Shown one piece after another: positions 82 through 12,036 of a stretch of DNA of 53,694 bases (positions are counted from its first letter, which is position 1; every line of letters starts with the position of its first letter). The DNA is from an uncultured Methylococcaceae bacterium. Its GTDB lineage: Bacteria > Pseudomonadota > Gammaproteobacteria > Methylococcales > Methylomonadaceae. The notes beneath the pieces were generated by a model. The model had not been told where the DNA came from. It ran no database searches and saw only the letters and a program-made list of their open reading frames with translations. A program made the position numbers and the translations under genes. The DNA lies in assembly GCA_903839855.1 (NCBI GenBank), contig CAIMEB010000181.1, positions 1-53,694 on the forward strand. Reading direction: 5' to 3'.

Positions 82-300
82 ATGGCTAAAGTACAAAAAT
101 CAACCGACTCTTCTAGCTTAGCTGAAGTTGTAGACCGTATTCTTGACAAAGGCATCGTTATTGATGCGTGGGTTAAGGTTTCATTAGTAGGTATCGAATT
201 ATTATCAATCGAAGCTCGCGTTGTTATCGCTTCTGTTGAAACTTATTTGAAATATGCTGAAGCGATTGGCTTAACTGCTAGCGCTGCAACACCAGCGTAA
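82..300 (+). CDS. gvpA: Gas vesicle shell protein GvpA
   Basis: This 72-residue protein is the main gas vesicle wall protein. It has the family's core: a [19 protein letters not shown] segment (first helix and start of the beta hairpin), then [32 protein letters not shown] (second strand and helix). Length and sequence are typical of GvpA. The start is set by an aaggagaa ribosome site 8-9 bases upstream. It follows a nearly identical copy at the window edge and precedes gvpC, so it is the first-operon structural gene. The promoter lies outside the window; in Serratia this operon needs the NtrC-type regulator GvrA. Confidence 0.97.
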
Positions 301-417: not shown

Positions 418-912
418 ATGGGACGTTTCACAGATGATCTGGCGCAATTACGAAGTAATATTAATAGTACTCGTGAAGACCGCTTATCTGAACAAAATGC
501 ACGGATTTTTAGTGTAAAAGCTCAGATATCTGACTTTGCTGCAACTCGTGCGAGCAACGGAATACAAGATGCTAAAGCACGGGCAGCGTTTGTCAACAAT
601 AATGCGAATGACGTTAATCGTTTAGTAAACTCATTTCATCACCTTCGTCAGGTGTTTGGGCGGCAGGGGCGCGAAGAGCGAGCCGCTTTTGTAAATGACT
701 TGTCAAAAAATACGTTCGATTTACTGACCAGCTTTAGTGTTGATCACAGAAATACGGCTGAACAGGATGCAAAATCAAGAGCAGACTTTGTTTCGGCGAA
801 TATAAGCAGTGTTAATGCTTATATTAATGAAGCCGCACAAGATAGAGCTGGTGCTCATGCTGCTTTTTTCGGCACAGGTGCCGCTAAAAAAAAAACAGCA
901 TTCATAGCATAG
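418..912 (+). CDS. gvpC: Gas vesicle scaffold protein GvpC (0-frame product, probably truncated)
   Basis: GvpC binds the outside of the vesicle and stiffens it. The 164 residues carry arginine-led repeats spaced exactly 33 residues apart: R22, then RAAFV at 55-59, RAAFV at 88-92 and RADFV at 121-125. This is the 33-residue periodicity known from cyanobacterial GvpC. The protein is helical, polar and rich in Ala, Asn, Arg and Glu. Ribosome site: aaggagaa before ATG 418. The frame closes at TAG 910-912, shortly after an A10 tract at 886-895. The -1 frame stays open for another 80-odd codons, so the listed stop may not be the real end of the protein. Confidence 0.9.
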   Translation: MGRFTDDLAQLRSNINSTREDRLSEQNARIFSVKAQISDFAATRASNGIQDAKARAAFVNNNANDVNRLVNSFHHLRQVFGRQGREERAAFVNDLSKNTFDLLTSFSVDHRNTAEQDAKSRADFVSANISSVNAYINEAAQDRAGAHAAFFGTGAAKKKTAFIA

Positions 913-1142
913 CGATTGGGCTTGTTGATGAGACTACAGATAAAACTGATGAAAATACGCCGATACAGGATGAAGAGCCAAGTATTGAAAAGCAGCAAGC
1001 GCTGTCAGAGGCTGTAGAACTAACAGAGGCATCTTCATCAGACTCAGTCATCATCGAGCCATTAGAAAGCTCAGAAGTGAAAAAGTCGAAAAAAGCGACT
1101 AAACATCACGACACATCGTTAGGAAAAAAGGAAGGCAAATAG
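886..1142 (+). other. gvpC: gvpC C-terminal extension in the -1 frame after an A10 tract
   Basis: Reading -1 relative to gvpC, or with one extra A in the A10 run at 886-895, gives an open frame to TAG 1140-1142. It adds 85 residues, for a total of about 241. The tail is acidic then basic (DETTDKTDENTPIQDEEPS, later EVKKSKKATKHH). No start codon with a ribosome site serves this segment alone, and gvpN begins only at 1380. The simplest reading is a GvpC tail reached by slippage, or a recent one-base deletion. Polymerase or ribosome slippage on A9-A10 runs is known in several bacteria. Confidence 0.6.
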
Positions 1143-1379: not shown

Positions 1380-2372
1380 ATGATTAGTAATAAAGCCGTT
1401 TCAAATTCAAAATATGAAGTAAAAGATGATCTTATCGTTCCAGAAGCGAGTAAAGGTTTTGTTGTTACAGCCTATGTAAAGGAGATAATAGATCGTTCGT
1501 TGGTTTACTTAAATGCAGGCTATCCAGTTCACTTTGCAGGGCCATCAGGAACAGGAAAAACAACGTTAGCATTTCATCTGGCAGCCCTATGGGGGCGTCC
1601 TGTTACTTTATTACAAGGTAATCAAGAGTTTGTAAGTTCCGATTTAACAGGAAAAGATGTTGGCTATCGCAAAAGCAGTTTAGTGGATAACTATATACAT
1701 TCAGTATTGAAAACTGAAGAACAGATGAGTCGTATGTGGGTCGATAACCGTTTAACTACGGCTTGCCGAAATGGGGATTTGTTGATCTATGACGAGTTTA
1801 ATCGTTCGAAGGCCGATACCAATAACGTACTGTTATCGGTTTTATCAGAAGGCATTTTAAATTTACCGGGTTCACGTGGTGCTGGTGAAGGTTATCTGGA
1901 TGTGCATCCTGGCTTCCGCGCTATTTTCACCTCTAACCCTGAAGAATATGCCGGTACGCATAAGACGCAAGATGCATTAATGAATCGCATGATTACAATT
2001 AATGTGGGTCTTGTTGATCGGGATACTGAGGTACAGATACTTCATGCCCGCTCTGAATTGCCAGTAAAAGAATCCGGGTACGTTGTAGATATAGTCAGAG
2101 AATTACACGGTAACGACCACGAAGCGAAACATGGTTTGCGGGCGGGTATTGCTATTGCTCGTATTCTCCAAATACAAGGTATGAAGCCACGTTATGGTGA
2201 TAAACTATTCCACGCTATCTGTTATGATGTTTTGAGCATGGAAACAGCTAAAATACAACATGCTGGTCGCTCTATATTTCATGAAATGATTGATGGTGTG
2301 ATTCGTAAGTATTGTCCCCCAGTGGGTTCAGAAGCGATCAAAGCGACTACAAAAATAAAAGCAGTAGAGTAA
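1380..2372 (+). CDS. gvpN: Gas vesicle AAA+ ATPase GvpN
   Basis: GvpN is a MoxR-type AAA+ ATPase found in nearly all gas vesicle clusters; it aids vesicle growth, probably acting on GvpC. The 330 residues show Walker A GPSGTGKTT at 54-62, Walker B DLLIYDEF at 133-140, followed by NRSKADTNN, and a sensor-1 FTSNP around residue 183. Length and motif order are normal for GvpN. The start ATG has a caggag ribosome site. The gene follows gvpC after a structured 237-base gap and precedes gvpV, as in Serratia. Confidence 0.96.
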   Translation: MISNKAVSNSKYEVKDDLIVPEASKGFVVTAYVKEIIDRSLVYLNAGYPVHFAGPSGTGKTTLAFHLAALWGRPVTLLQGNQEFVSSDLTGKDVGYRKSSLVDNYIHSVLKTEEQMSRMWVDNRLTTACRNGDLLIYDEFNRSKADTNNVLLSVLSEGILNLPGSRGAGEGYLDVHPGFRAIFTSNPEEYAGTHKTQDALMNRMITINVGLVDRDTEVQILHARSELPVKESGYVVDIVRELHGNDHEAKHGLRAGIAIARILQIQGMKPRYGDKLFHAICYDVLSMETAKIQHAGRSIFHEMIDGVIRKYCPPVGSEAIKATTKIKAVE

Positions 2373-3493: not shown

Positions 3494-3775
3494 ATGCTCT
3501 TAGTTGACGATATATTATTTTCGCCTGTTAAAGGAATCAACTGGATTTTTAAAAAAATCCATGAGCTGGCAGAAGAAGAGTTAGCTGGAGAAGCTGATAG
3601 GATTCGTGACAATCTCACAGAGCTATATATGCAACTAGAAACAGGTGAGATTACCGAAGAAGAGTTTGAACAGCAAGAAGCCATATTACTAGACCGATTG
3701 GATGCTCTAGATGAGGAAGATGATTTAATAGGCGAAGACGAAGAAGACGAAGAAGACGAAGAAGATGAGGTATGA
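3494..3775 (+). CDS. gvpG: Gas vesicle protein GvpG
   Basis: GvpG is a small helical assembly protein that accompanies GvpF and GvpL. The 93 residues show the family pattern: a hydrophobic start (MLLVDDILFSPVKGINWIFKKI) followed by a helical acidic stretch with EELAGEADRI and LETGEITEEEFEQQE. It ends in an almost pure Asp/Glu tail encoded by GAAGACGAA-type 9-base repeats from 3733. The last bases overlap the gvpW ATG (ATGA). The acidic tail is longer than usual and may be a slippage-prone tract. Confidence 0.93.
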   Translation: MLLVDDILFSPVKGINWIFKKIHELAEEELAGEADRIRDNLTELYMQLETGEITEEEFEQQEAILLDRLDALDEEDDLIGEDEEDEEDEEDEV

Positions 3776-5691
3776 CTCAAATGATTTACCCCAATTTTCT
3801 ACAAGAAGGCTCATTAAAGCTGGTTTTCTTTGGCGGTAAAGGGGGTGTGGGAAAAAGCACTTGTGCAACTGCCACTGCTTTAAAATTGGCACAAGATCAT
3901 CCAGAACATGTTTTTTTGTTAGCCTCGACTGACCCCGCGCACTCTCTCCTGAATATACTTTCTACTTTGGAATTACCCAAAAACTTAGAAGTTCGTGAAC
4001 TGAGTGCCGTCGCTTCATTGCATGAATTTAAAGTGCAATATGATACTTTCCTGAAAGAAATCGCAGAACGCGGAACTTTTCTGGATCAAGCCGATATTAA
4101 AAACCTAATGGATACGGCTCTTCCTGGTATGGATGAGTTGGCCGCTTATCTTGAAATTGCTAAATGGGTTCAAGAAAACAATTACTATAGAATCATTATA
4201 GATACCGCTCCGACAGGTCATACGTTACGACTATTAAATATGCCAGAGTTAATTCATCGCTGGTTAATTGCCTTGGATACATTACTTGCCAAACATAGGT
4301 ACATGCGAAGTCATTTTGGCGGTGATAAGCATTTGGATCATCTGGATGTTTTTTTACTGGACATGAATGATTCACTAAAATCAATGCATACATTGATGGT
4401 GGATAAAGAGCGATGCAACTTTATTTTGGTCATGGTAGCTGAATCTATGATTGTGGAAGAAAGTATCGATCTGGCTAAGGCCTTAAGTAAACAAAAGGTG
4501 TTTTTGTCTGATCTCATTCTTAATCGACTAACACCCGAAAGTTCCTGCCAGATATGCACTCTAGAAAATAACAGACAAAAGCTGGCTTTAAAGAAAATCA
4601 TTTTAAATTTGTCTGAACACCCGCTTTGGACACTGCCTTTGTTGGTTGATGAGCCTCGAGATAAACTACTGGGGATGCTTTGGTCTGAGTTAGATGTGCT
4701 TGATAAGGATCCTGGAAGACTAATATTTATCTCCAGTGAGTGTGAATTGCCTTTACATGTAGAAAGCCCAATCCAAATACCTGCCAATAGTTCAAGGTTG
4801 ATTATTTTCGCAGGCAAAGGAGGAGTAGGTAAGACAACCTTGGCGTGTGCAACTGCATTACGATTACAAAATGCTTATCCGGAACTACGCATTTTGTTGT
4901 TTTCAACGGATCCTGCGCATTCCATTGGCGATTGTTTGGGGTTGAGGGTACAATGCGCCCCTACAAAAGTAATTTTAAACTTGGATGCTCAAGAAATAAA
5001 TGCAGAAGCGGATTTTGAAAAAATTCGGATGGATTATAGAGAAGAGTTGGAAGATTTTCTACGAGACACTTTACCAAACCTGGATATTACTTTTGATCGT
5101 GAAGTGTTAGAGCGCTTACTTGATCTAGCACCCACCGGATTAGATGAAATTATGGCACTAACTACTATAATGGATCATCTTGATAGCGGTCGCTATGACA
5201 TGATTGTTGTGGATGCCGCCCCCAGTGGACATTTATTGCGTTTACTGGAATTGCCTGAGTTGATCAGAGACTGGCTGAGAATTTTTTTCTCATTGTTGCT
5301 CAAATACCGTAGAATTATGCGCTTTCCACATCTATCAGAACGATTGGTGAAGCTTTCGCGTGAATTAAAAAATCTGCGAGTGCTGTTGCAGGCGAGTGAG
5401 CAAACAGGGGTTTATGCGGTGACTATTCCTACTCATTTGGCGTTTGATAAAACCAGTGAAATGACACAGGCTTTACAGCGATTGGGTATCGATATTAGAG
5501 CACTGATTGTTAATCAAATGACGCCAGTAAGCTTTTGTAAGTTTTGCCAAACTATTGCAGATCACGAGTCAGAACAGTTAAAAAATGCTCATGAAACATT
5601 CCCTAATTTGCCTACAGCTTTGGTTTTTCGACAAAATGACCCAGCAGGTTTAAGTAAGCTAAGGAGTTTGGGTTCTGCACTTTACATATAG
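3772..5691 (+). CDS. gvpW: Tandem ArsA/Get3-like ATPase GvpW
   Basis: A 639-residue protein made of two ArsA/Get3-type P-loop domains. Domain 1 has the deviant Walker A GGKGGVGKST at 21-30, STDPAHS, and IIIDTAPTGHTLRLL. Domain 2 has GKGGVGKTT at about 348-356, STDPAHS, and VVDAAPSGHLLRLL. Each domain carries a CxxC pair (SCQICT, FCKFCQ), like the zinc-binding pair of Get3 dimers. Get3/ArsA proteins handle hydrophobic cargo or oxyanions; the setting suggests a chaperone for the very hydrophobic GvpA. There is no ars gene nearby. It overlaps gvpG by 4 bases. The symbol is taken from its place in the Serratia-type order. Confidence 0.85.
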   Translation: MTQMIYPNFLQEGSLKLVFFGGKGGVGKSTCATATALKLAQDHPEHVFLLASTDPAHSLLNILSTLELPKNLEVRELSAVASLHEFKVQYDTFLKEIAERGTFLDQADIKNLMDTALPGMDELAAYLEIAKWVQENNYYRIIIDTAPTGHTLRLLNMPELIHRWLIALDTLLAKHRYMRSHFGGDKHLDHLDVFLLDMNDSLKSMHTLMVDKERCNFILVMVAESMIVEESIDLAKALSKQKVFLSDLILNRLTPESSCQICTLENNRQKLALKKIILNLSEHPLWTLPLLVDEPRDKLLGMLWSELDVLDKDPGRLIFISSECELPLHVESPIQIPANSSRLIIFAGKGGVGKTTLACATALRLQNAYPELRILLFSTDPAHSIGDCLGLRVQCAPTKVILNLDAQEINAEADFEKIRMDYREELEDFLRDTLPNLDITFDREVLERLLDLAPTGLDEIMALTTIMDHLDSGRYDMIVVDAAPSGHLLRLLELPELIRDWLRIFFSLLLKYRRIMRFPHLSERLVKLSRELKNLRVLLQASEQTGVYAVTIPTHLAFDKTSEMTQALQRLGIDIRALIVNQMTPVSFCKFCQTIADHESEQLKNAHETFPNLPTALVFRQNDPAGLSKLRSLGSALYI

Positions 5692-7875: not shown

Positions 7876-9363
7876 ATGAAACCACATAGTTCAGGATACA
7901 TCCTAATCATAGATGACAACAAAGATATTTGTGATTTGTTGGCTCATCTTTTGAAGCATGCTGGCTATGAAACCCAACAGGGGTACGATGGTAACACTGC
8001 AATAAATTTATTGTCACAGTGCGAGCCTGATTTACTGCTCCTCGATAGTGTTATTCCTGAGCCTAACGGGATGGTCGTGTTGGCTAAAGCACATAGCATG
8101 TACCCGCAACTTCCAATTATTATAATTACTGGATCAGCGGGAATTCTAAGCGCAGTTTGTGCAATCAAAGCGGGCGCATGGGATTATCTACCAAAACCTT
8201 TCGATAATAATCGAGTCTTAGAGTTAGTTAATCGTGCTGTGCAAACACGCGGTGGCAAAAGAGATATAAATAGCCTACCCGATAGAGATTTTTACGCTCG
8301 AATTGGCGAGTCAATGGGTAGAAGCCCAGAAACCCAAAAAATTTTAAAGGATATTGTGCGTGTTGCGCACACTGACTTTTCTGTTATTATCCAAGGTGAA
8401 ACTGGAACTGGCAAGGAAATGATTGCTAGAAATATTCATTTGTCAAGTAAGCGTTCGACGGCAAGCTTTATTCCTATTGATTGTGGCGCAATATCAGATT
8501 CATTAATCGAAAATGAATTGTTTGGTCATGAAAAAGGCTCTTTTACAGGCGCCGATCACGCCTCCATAGGTAAGTTTGAAGCCGCTAATGGTGGTACTTT
8601 ATTTCTGGATGAAATCGCCAATATGACGTTATCCGCACAATCAAAACTGCTTCGGGTGTTGCAAGAGCATGTTATTTATCGTTTAGGTGGCGTAAAAGCT
8701 ATTCCTGTTAACGTTCGTATACTGGCTGCAAGCAATGAAAACCTGTTGGATGCGGTCATTAGAGGTAAATTTCGTGAGGATTTGTATTATCGTCTTAACG
8801 AATATGTCATTCATATCCAGCCATTACGTGAACGTCCAGAGGATATATTGTATTTAGCAAATCTTTTTATGAAAGAGGTTTGCACTGAACTTGGCATAGA
8901 GCTGTTGACCTTTTCAAATGAAGTTAAAAACTTACTGTTAAACCATAAATGGACGGGTAATGTTCGAGAACTACGCGCTGCCGTTCGGCGCTTAGCTTTA
9001 ATCTCCCGTGGGGAAGAAGTTGTTGTTGAAGATTTAAATTTTTTATTCGCTAGTCATCCTTCTAAACCGTCCAACTTAGTTTCATATCAGGTCGAAAACG
9101 CTGAGGATACAATAGATACAACAAAGTTGAAAGAAGATAATCTAAACTGGTCATGTTTAAACCACATAGACTACGGTGAGTATAAGAATTTGTCTTTGAA
9201 GGAAATTCGTCGTATCAATAACGCTAAAGTAGATAAATTAATAATTCAATCGGTTCTAAAAGAAACCGGAAACAATAAGGCCGAAGCAGCACGGCGTTTA
9301 AATATTGATTACAAATCACTGTGCTCTAAACTTAAAGAGATAACTAAATCCGAGGTAAGATAG
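7876..9363 (+). CDS. gvrA: NtrC-family sigma-54 activator GvrA
   Basis: A 495-residue response regulator. It has an N-terminal receiver domain (acidic IIDDNKD, phospho-acceptor Asp in LLLLDSVIPEPNG, conserved Lys in LPKPFD), a central sigma-54-interacting AAA+ domain with Walker A GETGTGKE at about 174-181 and a sigma-54 contact loop GSFTGA at about 221-226 (usual form GAFTGA), and a C-terminal Fis-type helix-turn-helix (NKAEAARRLNIDYKSLCSKL). In Serratia, GvrA is needed for expression of the gvpA operon. The partner kinase is probably GvrB. The first gene of the second block. Confidence 0.92.
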   Translation: MKPHSSGYILIIDDNKDICDLLAHLLKHAGYETQQGYDGNTAINLLSQCEPDLLLLDSVIPEPNGMVVLAKAHSMYPQLPIIIITGSAGILSAVCAIKAGAWDYLPKPFDNNRVLELVNRAVQTRGGKRDINSLPDRDFYARIGESMGRSPETQKILKDIVRVAHTDFSVIIQGETGTGKEMIARNIHLSSKRSTASFIPIDCGAISDSLIENELFGHEKGSFTGADHASIGKFEAANGGTLFLDEIANMTLSAQSKLLRVLQEHVIYRLGGVKAIPVNVRILAASNENLLDAVIRGKFREDLYYRLNEYVIHIQPLRERPEDILYLANLFMKEVCTELGIELLTFSNEVKNLLLNHKWTGNVRELRAAVRRLALISRGEEVVVEDLNFLFASHPSKPSNLVSYQVENAEDTIDTTKLKEDNLNWSCLNHIDYGEYKNLSLKEIRRINNAKVDKLIIQSVLKETGNNKAEAARRLNIDYKSLCSKLKEITKSEVR

Positions 9364-9365
9364 CA

Positions 9366-9893
9366 ATGATAAGTAAAAAAGGTAACTTGACCGGGAATGT
9401 AGAAGGCATTTTGCGAGGACTAGGCGATTTAGTAGAAAAGCTGGGTGAACTAGCCGAAAAAGGAGATCAATTAAAACGCAGTGGCGTTTTTGATATTGAT
9501 ACAGGAGGCGGCAAAGATGCTAAGGCGGTCTACGGCTTTTCGATGAAAATGGGTTTGAATGGTAATCAGGAGCCGCACATTGAACCTTTTGGAAATGTTC
9601 ATCGTGATGAAAAAACAGGTGAAACCACGGTACAGGCAGTGTCTGAACCGTTGATTGACATTATCGAAGAAAGTGATCATCTTTTAGTGTTGGCTGAAAT
9701 GCCGGGTGTAGCTGACGGAGACATTCATTTAGATTTAAACGGTGATATTTTAGTGCTACATGCCGAAAAGGGCAGTAAGAAATATCACAAAGAAATCGTC
9801 TTACCGCATGCCTTTGAGAGTAATTCAATGGAGCGCTCTTGCCATAACGGCATTTTAGAAGTCAAACTAAAACAGCGAGACGATTATGAATAA
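9366..9893 (+). CDS. gvpH: Hsp20-like gas vesicle protein GvpH
   Basis: A 175-residue protein. The N-terminal part (MISKKGNLTGNVEGILRGLGDLVEKLGELAE, then a Gly/Asp-rich linker) is typical of GvpH; the C-terminal 80 residues form an alpha-crystallin/Hsp20 domain (PLIDIIEESDHLLVLAEMPGV, DGDIHLDLNGDILVL, HNGILEVKL). In haloarchaea GvpH is a small heat-shock-like protein that keeps GvpA soluble. It overlaps gvpZ by 8 bases and sits two bases after the gvrA stop, so it belongs to the same transcript. Confidence 0.9.
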   Translation: MISKKGNLTGNVEGILRGLGDLVEKLGELAEKGDQLKRSGVFDIDTGGGKDAKAVYGFSMKMGLNGNQEPHIEPFGNVHRDEKTGETTVQAVSEPLIDIIEESDHLLVLAEMPGVADGDIHLDLNGDILVLHAEKGSKKYHKEIVLPHAFESNSMERSCHNGILEVKLKQRDDYE

Positions 9894-12036
9894 AGAACTT
9901 AAGCTTAAGGTTACTGAAGCCCTGTCCAAAGATACCGGTCGTGGTTATGCACGTATGGATCCATCGGACATGGCAAAGTTAAATTTAGCTGTGGGAGATA
10001 TTGTCCAAGTATCCAGTTCAAAAGGCAGTGGCGTTGCCAAATTAATGCCGACTTATATTGATCTGCGCGGCAAAGGCATTGTGCAATTGGATGGCTTGAC
10101 TCGGCGTAATGCGGCTCTGAGTTTGGATGAAAAGGTTCTCATTGAACCTGTTACCTGTAAACAGGCTACTCGCATTGTTCTTATTCCTACTACGATTACG
10201 CCCAATCCACGTGATTTAGATTACATAGGTAGCCTACTTGATGGTTTACCTGTTAAAAAAGGTGATCTATTACGTGCCCATTTGTTTGGTAGTCGTTCGG
10301 CGGAATTTAAAGTCGAAAGTACACTACCCGAAGGTGCAGTACTGATTAATCCCACGACAGCACTCGTTATCGGTGGCTCAAAAGAAACCAAGAATGCTAC
10401 AGGAAATGGCCAACGCCTGTCGTATGAAGATGTCGGCGGATTAAGAGGCCAGGTACGCCGCATTCGGGAAATGATCGAGCTACCTTTGCGTTATCCTGAA
10501 GTCTTTGAGCGCTTGGGAATAGATGCTCCGAAAGGTGTATTACTATCGGGTCCACCGGGTTGTGGAAAAACGCTGATTGCACGCATAATCGCCCAAGAAA
10601 CAGAAGCTCAATTTTATACCATTAGCGGTCCTGAGATTGTACATAAGTTTTATGGTGAAAGTGAAGCTCATTTACGTAAAATTTTTGAGGAAGCGGGTCG
10701 AAAAGGCCCCAGTATAATCTTCCTTGATGAAATTGACTCTATCGCCCCGCATAGAGACAAGGTTGTCGGTGATGTTGAAAAACGTATCGTTGCTCAACTA
10801 TTGGCTTTAATGGATGGTTTAAAGAGCCGAGGCAAAGTCATTGTTATCGCAGCAACCAACTTACCTAACGCAATTGATCCTGCTTTACGACGTCCTGGAC
10901 GGTTTGACCGAGAAATCTCTATCCCTATTCCAGACCGTGAAGGTCGGCGTGAAATCATCGAAATTCACAGTAGAGGAATGCCTCTAAATGATGATGTAGA
11001 ACTCAATATTGTTGCTGACGTCACTCACGGTTTCGTCGGTGCCGATCTGGAAGCTCTATGCCGTGAAGCAGCAATGAGTGCATTGCGACGCCTCCTCCCT
11101 GAAATTGATTTCAGTGCAGCAGAAATCCCTTATGAACGTCTCTCTGCATTAACAGTGACAATGGATGACTTTAGAGCTGCCTTATGCGAAGTATCTCCCT
11201 CAGCTATCCGTGAGCTATTTGTGGATATACCCGATGTGCGCTGGAAAGACGTGGGTGGGTTGGATGATATTCGTCGTCGCTTGATCGAGTCAGTTCAATG
11301 GCCCATTAAATATCCCGAGCTTTATCAGCAAGCGGGTGTCAAACCCCCTAAGGGTTTGTTATTGGCAGGGCCACCGGGTGTTGGCAAGACCTTAATTGCA
11401 AAAGCCATAGCCAATGAAAGTGGTGTAAATGTTATCTCTGTTAAAGGGCCGGCACTGATGTCTCGCTATGTGGGAGACTCTGAGCAAGGCGTGCGAGATT
11501 TGTTTCACAAAGCCCGTCAAGCAGCACCCTGTATTATTTTTCTCGATGAAGTTGATTCAGTGGTGCCTTCAAGGGGAGAAGGCTCAACAGACTCTCATGT
11601 TGCTGAGCGAGTGTTAAGTCAATTTCTATCAGAAATGGACGGTTTGGAAGAACTCAAAGGCGTCTTTGTGATGGGCGCGACTAATCGTGTGGATTTAATT
11701 GACCCAGCGATGCTCCGTCCTGGGCGTTTTGATGAAATCATTGAGTTAGGCTTGCCCAATGAAGAAGCACGCAAACAGATTCTAACAGTACACTTACGCA
11801 ATAAACCGCTGAGTGAAAACATTCTAGTGGATAAATTGGCTGCTCGTTGTTTTAATGCGAGTGGAGCAGAGCTTGCTGCTGTTTGCAATCGTGCCGCGTT
11901 ATCCGCTTTACGTCGTGCAGTACAACAATGTAATAGTGATGAGACTCCTAATAAATTAACCGTGCTTATAGAACAGCATGATTTTGATGAAGTTATTGCA
12001 GAAATGTTTGGTAAAGAAGGTGAGGATCTTCGGTGA
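9886..12036 (+). CDS. gvpZ: Cdc48/p97-like double AAA+ ATPase GvpZ
   Basis: A 716-residue protein built like archaeal Cdc48/VAT. It has an N-terminal double-psi barrel region (GRGYARMDPSDMAKLNLAVGD, about residues 18-38), AAA D1 with Walker A GPPGCGKT at about 222-229 and IIFLDEIDSI, and AAA D2 with GPPGVGKT at about 495-502 and IIFLDEVDSV. Second-region-of-homology arginines are seen in both (RRPGRFD, LRPGRFD), so both domains look active. It is a protein-unfolding or remodelling machine; the context says it acts on Gvp proteins. It overlaps gvpH and gvpF2 by 8 and 4 bases. The symbol follows the Serratia order. Confidence 0.85.
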   Translation: MNKELKLKVTEALSKDTGRGYARMDPSDMAKLNLAVGDIVQVSSSKGSGVAKLMPTYIDLRGKGIVQLDGLTRRNAALSLDEKVLIEPVTCKQATRIVLIPTTITPNPRDLDYIGSLLDGLPVKKGDLLRAHLFGSRSAEFKVESTLPEGAVLINPTTALVIGGSKETKNATGNGQRLSYEDVGGLRGQVRRIREMIELPLRYPEVFERLGIDAPKGVLLSGPPGCGKTLIARIIAQETEAQFYTISGPEIVHKFYGESEAHLRKIFEEAGRKGPSIIFLDEIDSIAPHRDKVVGDVEKRIVAQLLALMDGLKSRGKVIVIAATNLPNAIDPALRRPGRFDREISIPIPDREGRREIIEIHSRGMPLNDDVELNIVADVTHGFVGADLEALCREAAMSALRRLLPEIDFSAAEIPYERLSALTVTMDDFRAALCEVSPSAIRELFVDIPDVRWKDVGGLDDIRRRLIESVQWPIKYPELYQQAGVKPPKGLLLAGPPGVGKTLIAKAIANESGVNVISVKGPALMSRYVGDSEQGVRDLFHKARQAAPCIIFLDEVDSVVPSRGEGSTDSHVAERVLSQFLSEMDGLEELKGVFVMGATNRVDLIDPAMLRPGRFDEIIELGLPNEEARKQILTVHLRNKPLSENILVDKLAARCFNASGAELAAVCNRAALSALRRAVQQCNSDETPNKLTVLIEQHDFDEVIAEMFGKEGEDLR

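Follow-up and report, generated by a model that had tools for sequence, protein, structure and literature searches.

The closest described counterparts of the gene examined here are bacterial genes in which slippage on a homopolymer yields two protein lengths. In the available parts of a study of type VI secretion genes (PMC4256274), Citrobacter rodentium tssM1 carries an A11 run just before its stop codon and makes its full-length form by slippage at a level of 20–25%, the short and long forms both being needed, and Yersinia pseudotuberculosis tssM3 makes its shorter form by slippage. The accessible portion of a recoding review (PMC5009743) describes two further cases: Thermus thermophilus dnaX, where the long product lies in a single open reading frame (ORF) with a nine-base homopolymer and nearby stops in the other frames, and slippage gives the short form; and Shigella spa13, where a large-assembly protein gains a C-terminal extension through slippage. 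According to the same source, nine A or T residues are enough for efficient slippage by bacterial polymerase in vivo.

GvpC itself is known as a gas-vesicle coat protein with a repetitive body. In the available parts of two sources, the Anabaena protein is built of 33-residue helical repeats, and the Halobacterium protein carries repeats followed by a globular C-terminal domain, its gene standing in the order gvpACNO (PMC10185304, PMC9372576); the Anabaena repeats lie on the shell, and removal of the termini lowers the collapse pressure (PMC10185304). Those parts make no mention of recoding for either protein. Among cultured methanotrophs, Methylobacter psychrophilus is reported to form gas vesicles (PMC12810054). 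The main texts of two methanotroph papers (PMC12810054, PMC11008690) treat gvp genes without gvpC, gas vesicles are unmentioned in the main text of a large survey of frame transitions (PMC3711429) and in the available portion of the recoding review PMC5009743, and a full-text literature search combining gas vesicle or GvpC with frameshifting or slippage returned no paper that, by its title or abstract opening, describes recoding of gvpC.

We report here a methanotroph gvpC whose layout probably serves the same purpose as that of these genes. In the first of two gvpC families the A run stands before the stop, as in tssM1; in the second the long protein is in frame and slippage would give the short form, the same change of polarity as in tssM3 and a layout resembling dnaX; and the proposed C-terminal extension of a large-assembly protein recalls spa13. 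The settings differ: tssM belongs to type VI secretion, and slippery sites are described as uncommon among tssM genes, whereas the gvpC device is kept across whole clades, and slippage is measured in tssM but deduced for gvpC (PMC4256274, as far as available); dnaX encodes a polymerase subunit with a demonstrated ratio of about 1:1, and spa13 belongs to type III secretion, with an extension that overlaps the next gene, and does not encode an organelle shell protein (PMC5009743, as far as available). Like the Anabaena protein, the product described here has 33-residue repeats, and like the Halobacterium gene its gene lies beside gvpA and gvpN, but the Halobacterium C-terminal domain is globular whereas the methanotroph tail is predicted to be disordered (PMC10185304, PMC9372576, in the parts available). 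Two protein lengths by programmed slippage are thus known; their probable use in a gas-vesicle gene, family-wide and flipped in another family, appears from the literature searched to be new.

The stretch analysed, hereafter the window, is one contig of 53,694 nucleotides from a draft assembly of 294 contigs of an uncultured Methylococcaceae bacterium; a genome scan with the window named two Methylococcales metagenome bins as relatives. The window starts with a gas-vesicle cluster, in the order gvpA, gvpC and a gvpN-like ATPase gene, followed by genes for GvpL/F, GvpG, an ArsA-type ATPase and GvpK (Table 1). We take the gvpN-like ATPase to be GvpN from gene order and general knowledge of such clusters, a GvpN-specific model being absent among its Pfam matches.

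Table 1. Positions in the window of gvpC, its recoding elements and its two neighbouring genes.
Feature	Position	Strand	Basis
gvpA, 72 aa, 5' neighbour of gvpC	82..300	+	Pfam Gas_vesicle 2e-17; NCBIfam GvpA subfamily 3.5e-40
gvpC 0-frame, short GvpC, 164 aa, 33-residue repeats	418..912	+	ATG at 418, ORF; 20 homologous loci
Candidate nascent-RNA hairpin CGGCA-CAGG-TGCCG, 2 nt 5' of the run	870..883	+	Folding; suggestive at most
A10 slippery run	886..895	+	9–12 A here in 20/20 family loci; A10–A11 in 6/6 second-family loci
−1 frame tail of long GvpC, 84 codons, stop TAG 1140–1142	888..1142	+	Opening motif KKNSIxSIAI, acidic middle, basic end
0-frame TAG within long-frame codons ATA GCG (I-A)	910..912	+	TAG in 25/26 loci
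gvpN-like AAA ATPase, 3' neighbour of gvpC	1380..2372	+	Pfam AAA_5 9.8e-18

Several other features of this region are recorded here in their own right. The contig opens within another gvpA copy (positions 1–51), and the source genome holds five Gas_vesicle matches, on contigs C181 (three), C149 and C57; the assembly was therefore probably broken at the contig start by gvpA repeats. Between gvpC and gvpN, at 1181–1215, lies a near-perfect inverted repeat with 17-nt arms (94% complementary) and a 1-nt spacer, also present in loci L002 and L003, which could attenuate transcription into gvpN. Within the cluster, 3772–5691 encodes a double ArsA-type ATPase, matched by Pfam ArsA_ATPase over two stretches (3.6e-109), that might help to target or assemble Gvp proteins. 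Directly 3' of the gvp genes is a CDC48-type double AAA ATPase gene (9886–12036), with a sigma-54 response regulator gene (7876–9363) 5' of it.

The name GvpC rests on gene position, between gvpA and the gvpN-like gene of a gas-vesicle cluster, and on the 33-residue repeats, since no GvpC model in Pfam or NCBIfam was matched by the short protein. The best self-match offset is 33 residues for the window protein (z 3.6) and for the second family (z 3.9), and the same period reaches z 4.3 over 12 clade representatives, the window protein included. Searches of the PDB returned no convincing relative (best E 0.058, unrelated), and neither the body nor the tail gave a convincing known domain in Pfam, NCBIfam or the PDB.

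The sequence-only reading had described a gvpC frame that stops 15 bases after a run of ten A, a −1 frame that stays open to 1142 without a start of its own, and a GvpC of about 241 residues restored by one added A. The stop is present, at a spacing of 14 rather than 15 bases; the rest agrees with our reanalysis, in which the −1 frame read with an extra A gives a protein of 241 aa and the tail translation contains zero ATG codons, its first GTG/TTG-type codon lying 181 nt past the run and 21 codons before the end. We set aside the idea that the A10 run is a statistical oddity in itself, because chance suffices for it in the window: one such run is found, where dinucleotide shuffles give a mean of 2.16, and at least one occurs in 80 of 100 shuffles. 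What is beyond chance, in the aligned sequences, is that run, stop and tail are kept together in relatives.

Homologues of gvpC occur in 19 of 237 genomes of the family, at 20 loci, and the alignment to relatives that the sequence-only reading had called for shows the A run and both frames kept at every one of them: a run of A9–A12 (A10 in 13 loci, A9 in three, A12 in three, A11 in one), a 0-frame stop 5–15 nt past the run, and an open −1 frame. The long protein totals 217–243 residues in the 19 complete genes, and the +1 frame meets early stops. Among relatives with a clear GvpC body, none combines an unbroken frame with the lack of an A run. In these counts the partial locus L021 enters for run, stop and tail only; L002 and L003 duplicate L004 and L005, and L023–L033 and L043 repeat other loci, so that these rows were dropped; and L008, L015 and L021, being identical, near-identical or partial, were omitted from several counts.

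The tail behaves as a coding sequence chiefly by its length. The −1 frame extends 52–78 codons past the 0-frame stop at each of the 20 loci, and the other two frames carry 1–11 stops each over the tail stretches. Since its own stop delimits the tail, the proper test is the open length: over 12 clade representatives the other two frames hold 124 stops in 1494 codons, so that about 12 open codons would be usual, and the 759 open codons observed have a chance of about 10^-28.6 if independent, which the clades are not fully. The tail opens, in its commonest letters, with KKNSIPSIAI, often followed by IDE, then has a charged, variable middle and a basic end; the loss of conservation that the earlier reading had named as evidence against recoding is thus not what we see, the frame being open and the opening motif and basic end being kept. 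At none of the 20 loci does an ATG, GTG or TTG precede the conserved motif in the long frame; the first such codon lies 22–181 nt past the run, is absent altogether in two loci, and is an ATG in a sole case, five codons from the end. The motif could therefore hardly be produced except fused to the gvpC body.

Substitutions in the tail give a weaker signal. dN/dS in the tail is 0.26–0.82 in nine pairs, a tenth pair (L014/L015) being without nonsynonymous change, and six independent pairs taken together show a third-position excess of only 43/105 (p = 0.06); this fits a disordered tail under weak constraint and is no proof of it. As a separate observation, the tails of L019 (genome G228) and L021 (G229) contain an internal duplication, with QHESQDSG present twice, so tail length seems free to change.

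The stop that ends the short protein is itself kept against the long frame. It lies hidden inside a long-frame codon for I, L or V at all 26 loci of both families, as TAG in 25 and as TGA in L018; the long-frame residue changes between I, L and V while TAG persists, and the codon that follows specifies Ala in 22 of 26 loci with all four bases at its third position. Given the encoded residues and codon usage, all 16 clade representatives would carry the hidden stop with a probability of about 10^-9.5 and runs of at least nine A with one of about 10^-5.9, both values being too small because the clades share ancestry. Against this stands that Lys codons in the family are 80% AAA (192/240), and the KKK motif alone therefore makes nine A fairly likely, at about 0.5 per clade.

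When 311 genomes of the order were searched with a profile, 28 matched. Apart from the 19 family genomes, these include six that belong to a single genus of another family and whose gvpC is longer, the tail being in frame (354–369 residues from the ATG in five complete genes; the sixth, L039, is partial); each of the six has an A10 or A11 run at the corresponding position. Slippage in either direction would end translation 4–19 residues after the first codon of the run; with one A removed or two added, the frame meets TAG at a codon homologous to the first family's stop. A tree was built from the GvpC bodies of 24 of the 26 loci (the partial genes L021 and L039 being left out), and one branch with support 100/99 separates the two polarities. 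The tails of the two families match by profile over the first 18 columns only (probability 35%, E 0.0004 for a single comparison). In a predicted model of the in-frame long protein of a second-family locus (L034, unaltered; mean pLDDT 66.8, pTM 0.30), long helices extend as far as residue 249 with moderate confidence, and a tail with pLDDT below 50 follows from about residue 253. We also considered whether the short form, which in the first family often ends in hydrophobic residues (FLV, FIA), might carry a degradation signal; we place no weight on this idea because the short forms of the second family do not share these endings.

In the order, 33 genomes have gvpA matches and 28 a gvpC match, the remaining five being G065, G073, G137, G222 and G286. 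The weak matches in G270, G271 and G296 (E 3.4e-5 to 1.7e-4) are short GvpC-like proteins whose ORFs have no A run of seven or more and no tail. In a sample of the class, 3 of 369 genomes matched, namely the source genome and two weak matches (L045 was judged from its ORF list alone), and in a sample of the phylum 1 of 398, the source genome again; both sets are samples rather than full coverage.

Our results suggest that gvpC is probably subject to programmed transcriptional slippage on poly-A, which would yield a short GvpC together with a longer GvpC bearing a disordered, charged tail: RNA polymerase would slip on A9–A12, so that A residues are added to or dropped from part of the transcripts; unslipped mRNA would give the short form, with its helical 33-residue repeats followed by KKK and a few residues; and mRNA with one extra A would give the long form, with a disordered tail of about 60–85 residues that has an acidic middle and a basic end. 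In the second family the phase would be opposite, the long form being standard and slippage giving the short one, so that both families would keep both forms and differ in the expected ratio alone. A homopolymer of at least nine A lies inside the gene at all 26 loci, and the alternative frame after it, by which programmed slippage is recognized, is kept, the tail substitution pattern being weak as noted above. The kept run and tail lend weight to the earlier suggestion of A-run slippage as a recoding device; the alignments show that run, stop, open tail and hidden stop are conserved, and slippage itself, its rate and the coating of vesicles by both forms are inferred. The flipped family fits slippage because its uninterrupted frame still carries the run.

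The same long protein could also arise from faithful transcripts by programmed −1 ribosomal frameshifting on A_AAA_AAA, a heptamer that stands in phase at 20 of 20 family loci and that, with A_AAA_AAG, is a proven site in some IS elements (PMC4066793, in the part available). We regard this as unlikely. Seven A would suffice for frameshifting, yet at least nine are kept at 26 of 26 loci; a −1 shift out of the long frame of the flipped family misses the conserved hidden TAG, which is reached by the loss of one A or the gain of two; and only two of 26 loci, one being a family locus, have a Shine-Dalgarno-like core (AGGA, GGAG or GAGG) a short way upstream. For 23 of the 26 loci, 80 nt on the downstream side and about 45 nt on the upstream side were folded with a model that does not cover pseudoknots; neither a downstream structure (mean z −0.75) nor an upstream hairpin (mean z −0.60) was consistent among them, although single loci reach z −2 or lower (downstream L013, L018 and L019; upstream L012 and L022). 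These folds give no support to a conserved RNA stimulator, there being no consistent excess over shuffles. The hairpin just 5' of the run in the window resembles a slippage-stimulating stem-loop of a Roseiflexus IS element (PMC5009743, in the part available); as a stimulator it was set aside too, for it folds in L001, L004 and L005 only, at z −0.90 to −0.02, and other loci fold differently.

The remaining alternatives place the change in the DNA. Long A tracts are mutable and GvpC length is conceivable as a contingency trait, so that replication slippage in the run might switch cells heritably between short and long GvpC; but at such a locus relatives would be expected to differ in phase, and none is mixed: polarity is fixed, the short form being in frame at all 20 loci of one family and the long form at all six of the other, and the tree shows a single change, which makes phase variation very unlikely. 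There is still less to be said for a short form that functions alone beside a tail that is the decaying remnant of an ancestral long GvpC. Tail constraint is indeed weak and tail length varies between 52 and 78 codons, but decay over such divergence would give early stops and frame-breaking indels, whereas the −1 frame is open at all 20 loci with its opening motif and basic end retained. The view that the source genome alone carries an error of sequencing or assembly, or a recent disabling mutation, is almost certainly wrong, even though homopolymers invite errors and the assembly that contains the window is a draft. The same layout is found in 18 other family genomes (two of them records QVQE01000013.1 and CAIOMN010000268.1), one genome with the layout, G062 (locus L011), is a single contig, and both the hidden stop and the tail persist across large divergence, so we reject this option, which the sequence-only reading had listed.

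If slippage does supply both forms, their division of labour may be read by analogy; the sequence-only reading had suggested that a switch of GvpC length could tune vesicle stiffness. The C-terminal domain of Halobacterium GvpC binds GvpN, GvpO and other Gvp proteins, and on that model the tail most likely makes some GvpC molecules docking or linking points while the short form stiffens the vesicle; the short form would then mainly stiffen, and the long form would add contact points at a set ratio. More tentatively, and as a possibility that we hold to be doubtful, poly-A slippage might act as a fixed-ratio mixer for an organelle shell, placing long-tailed GvpC randomly among short molecules and so setting the number of docking or linking points per vesicle, with lineages tuning their vesicles through the length or phase of the run instead of through regulation. 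Temperature or growth rate might in addition influence the slippage ratio.

A two-isoform GvpC, if true, would change models of the gas-vesicle coat in methanotrophs, because one of the two proteins escapes plain ORF calling. Conserved programmed slippage would then also reach a structural gene of an organelle, and the two families of opposite phase would offer a natural pair for testing how slippage sets the ratios of isoforms.
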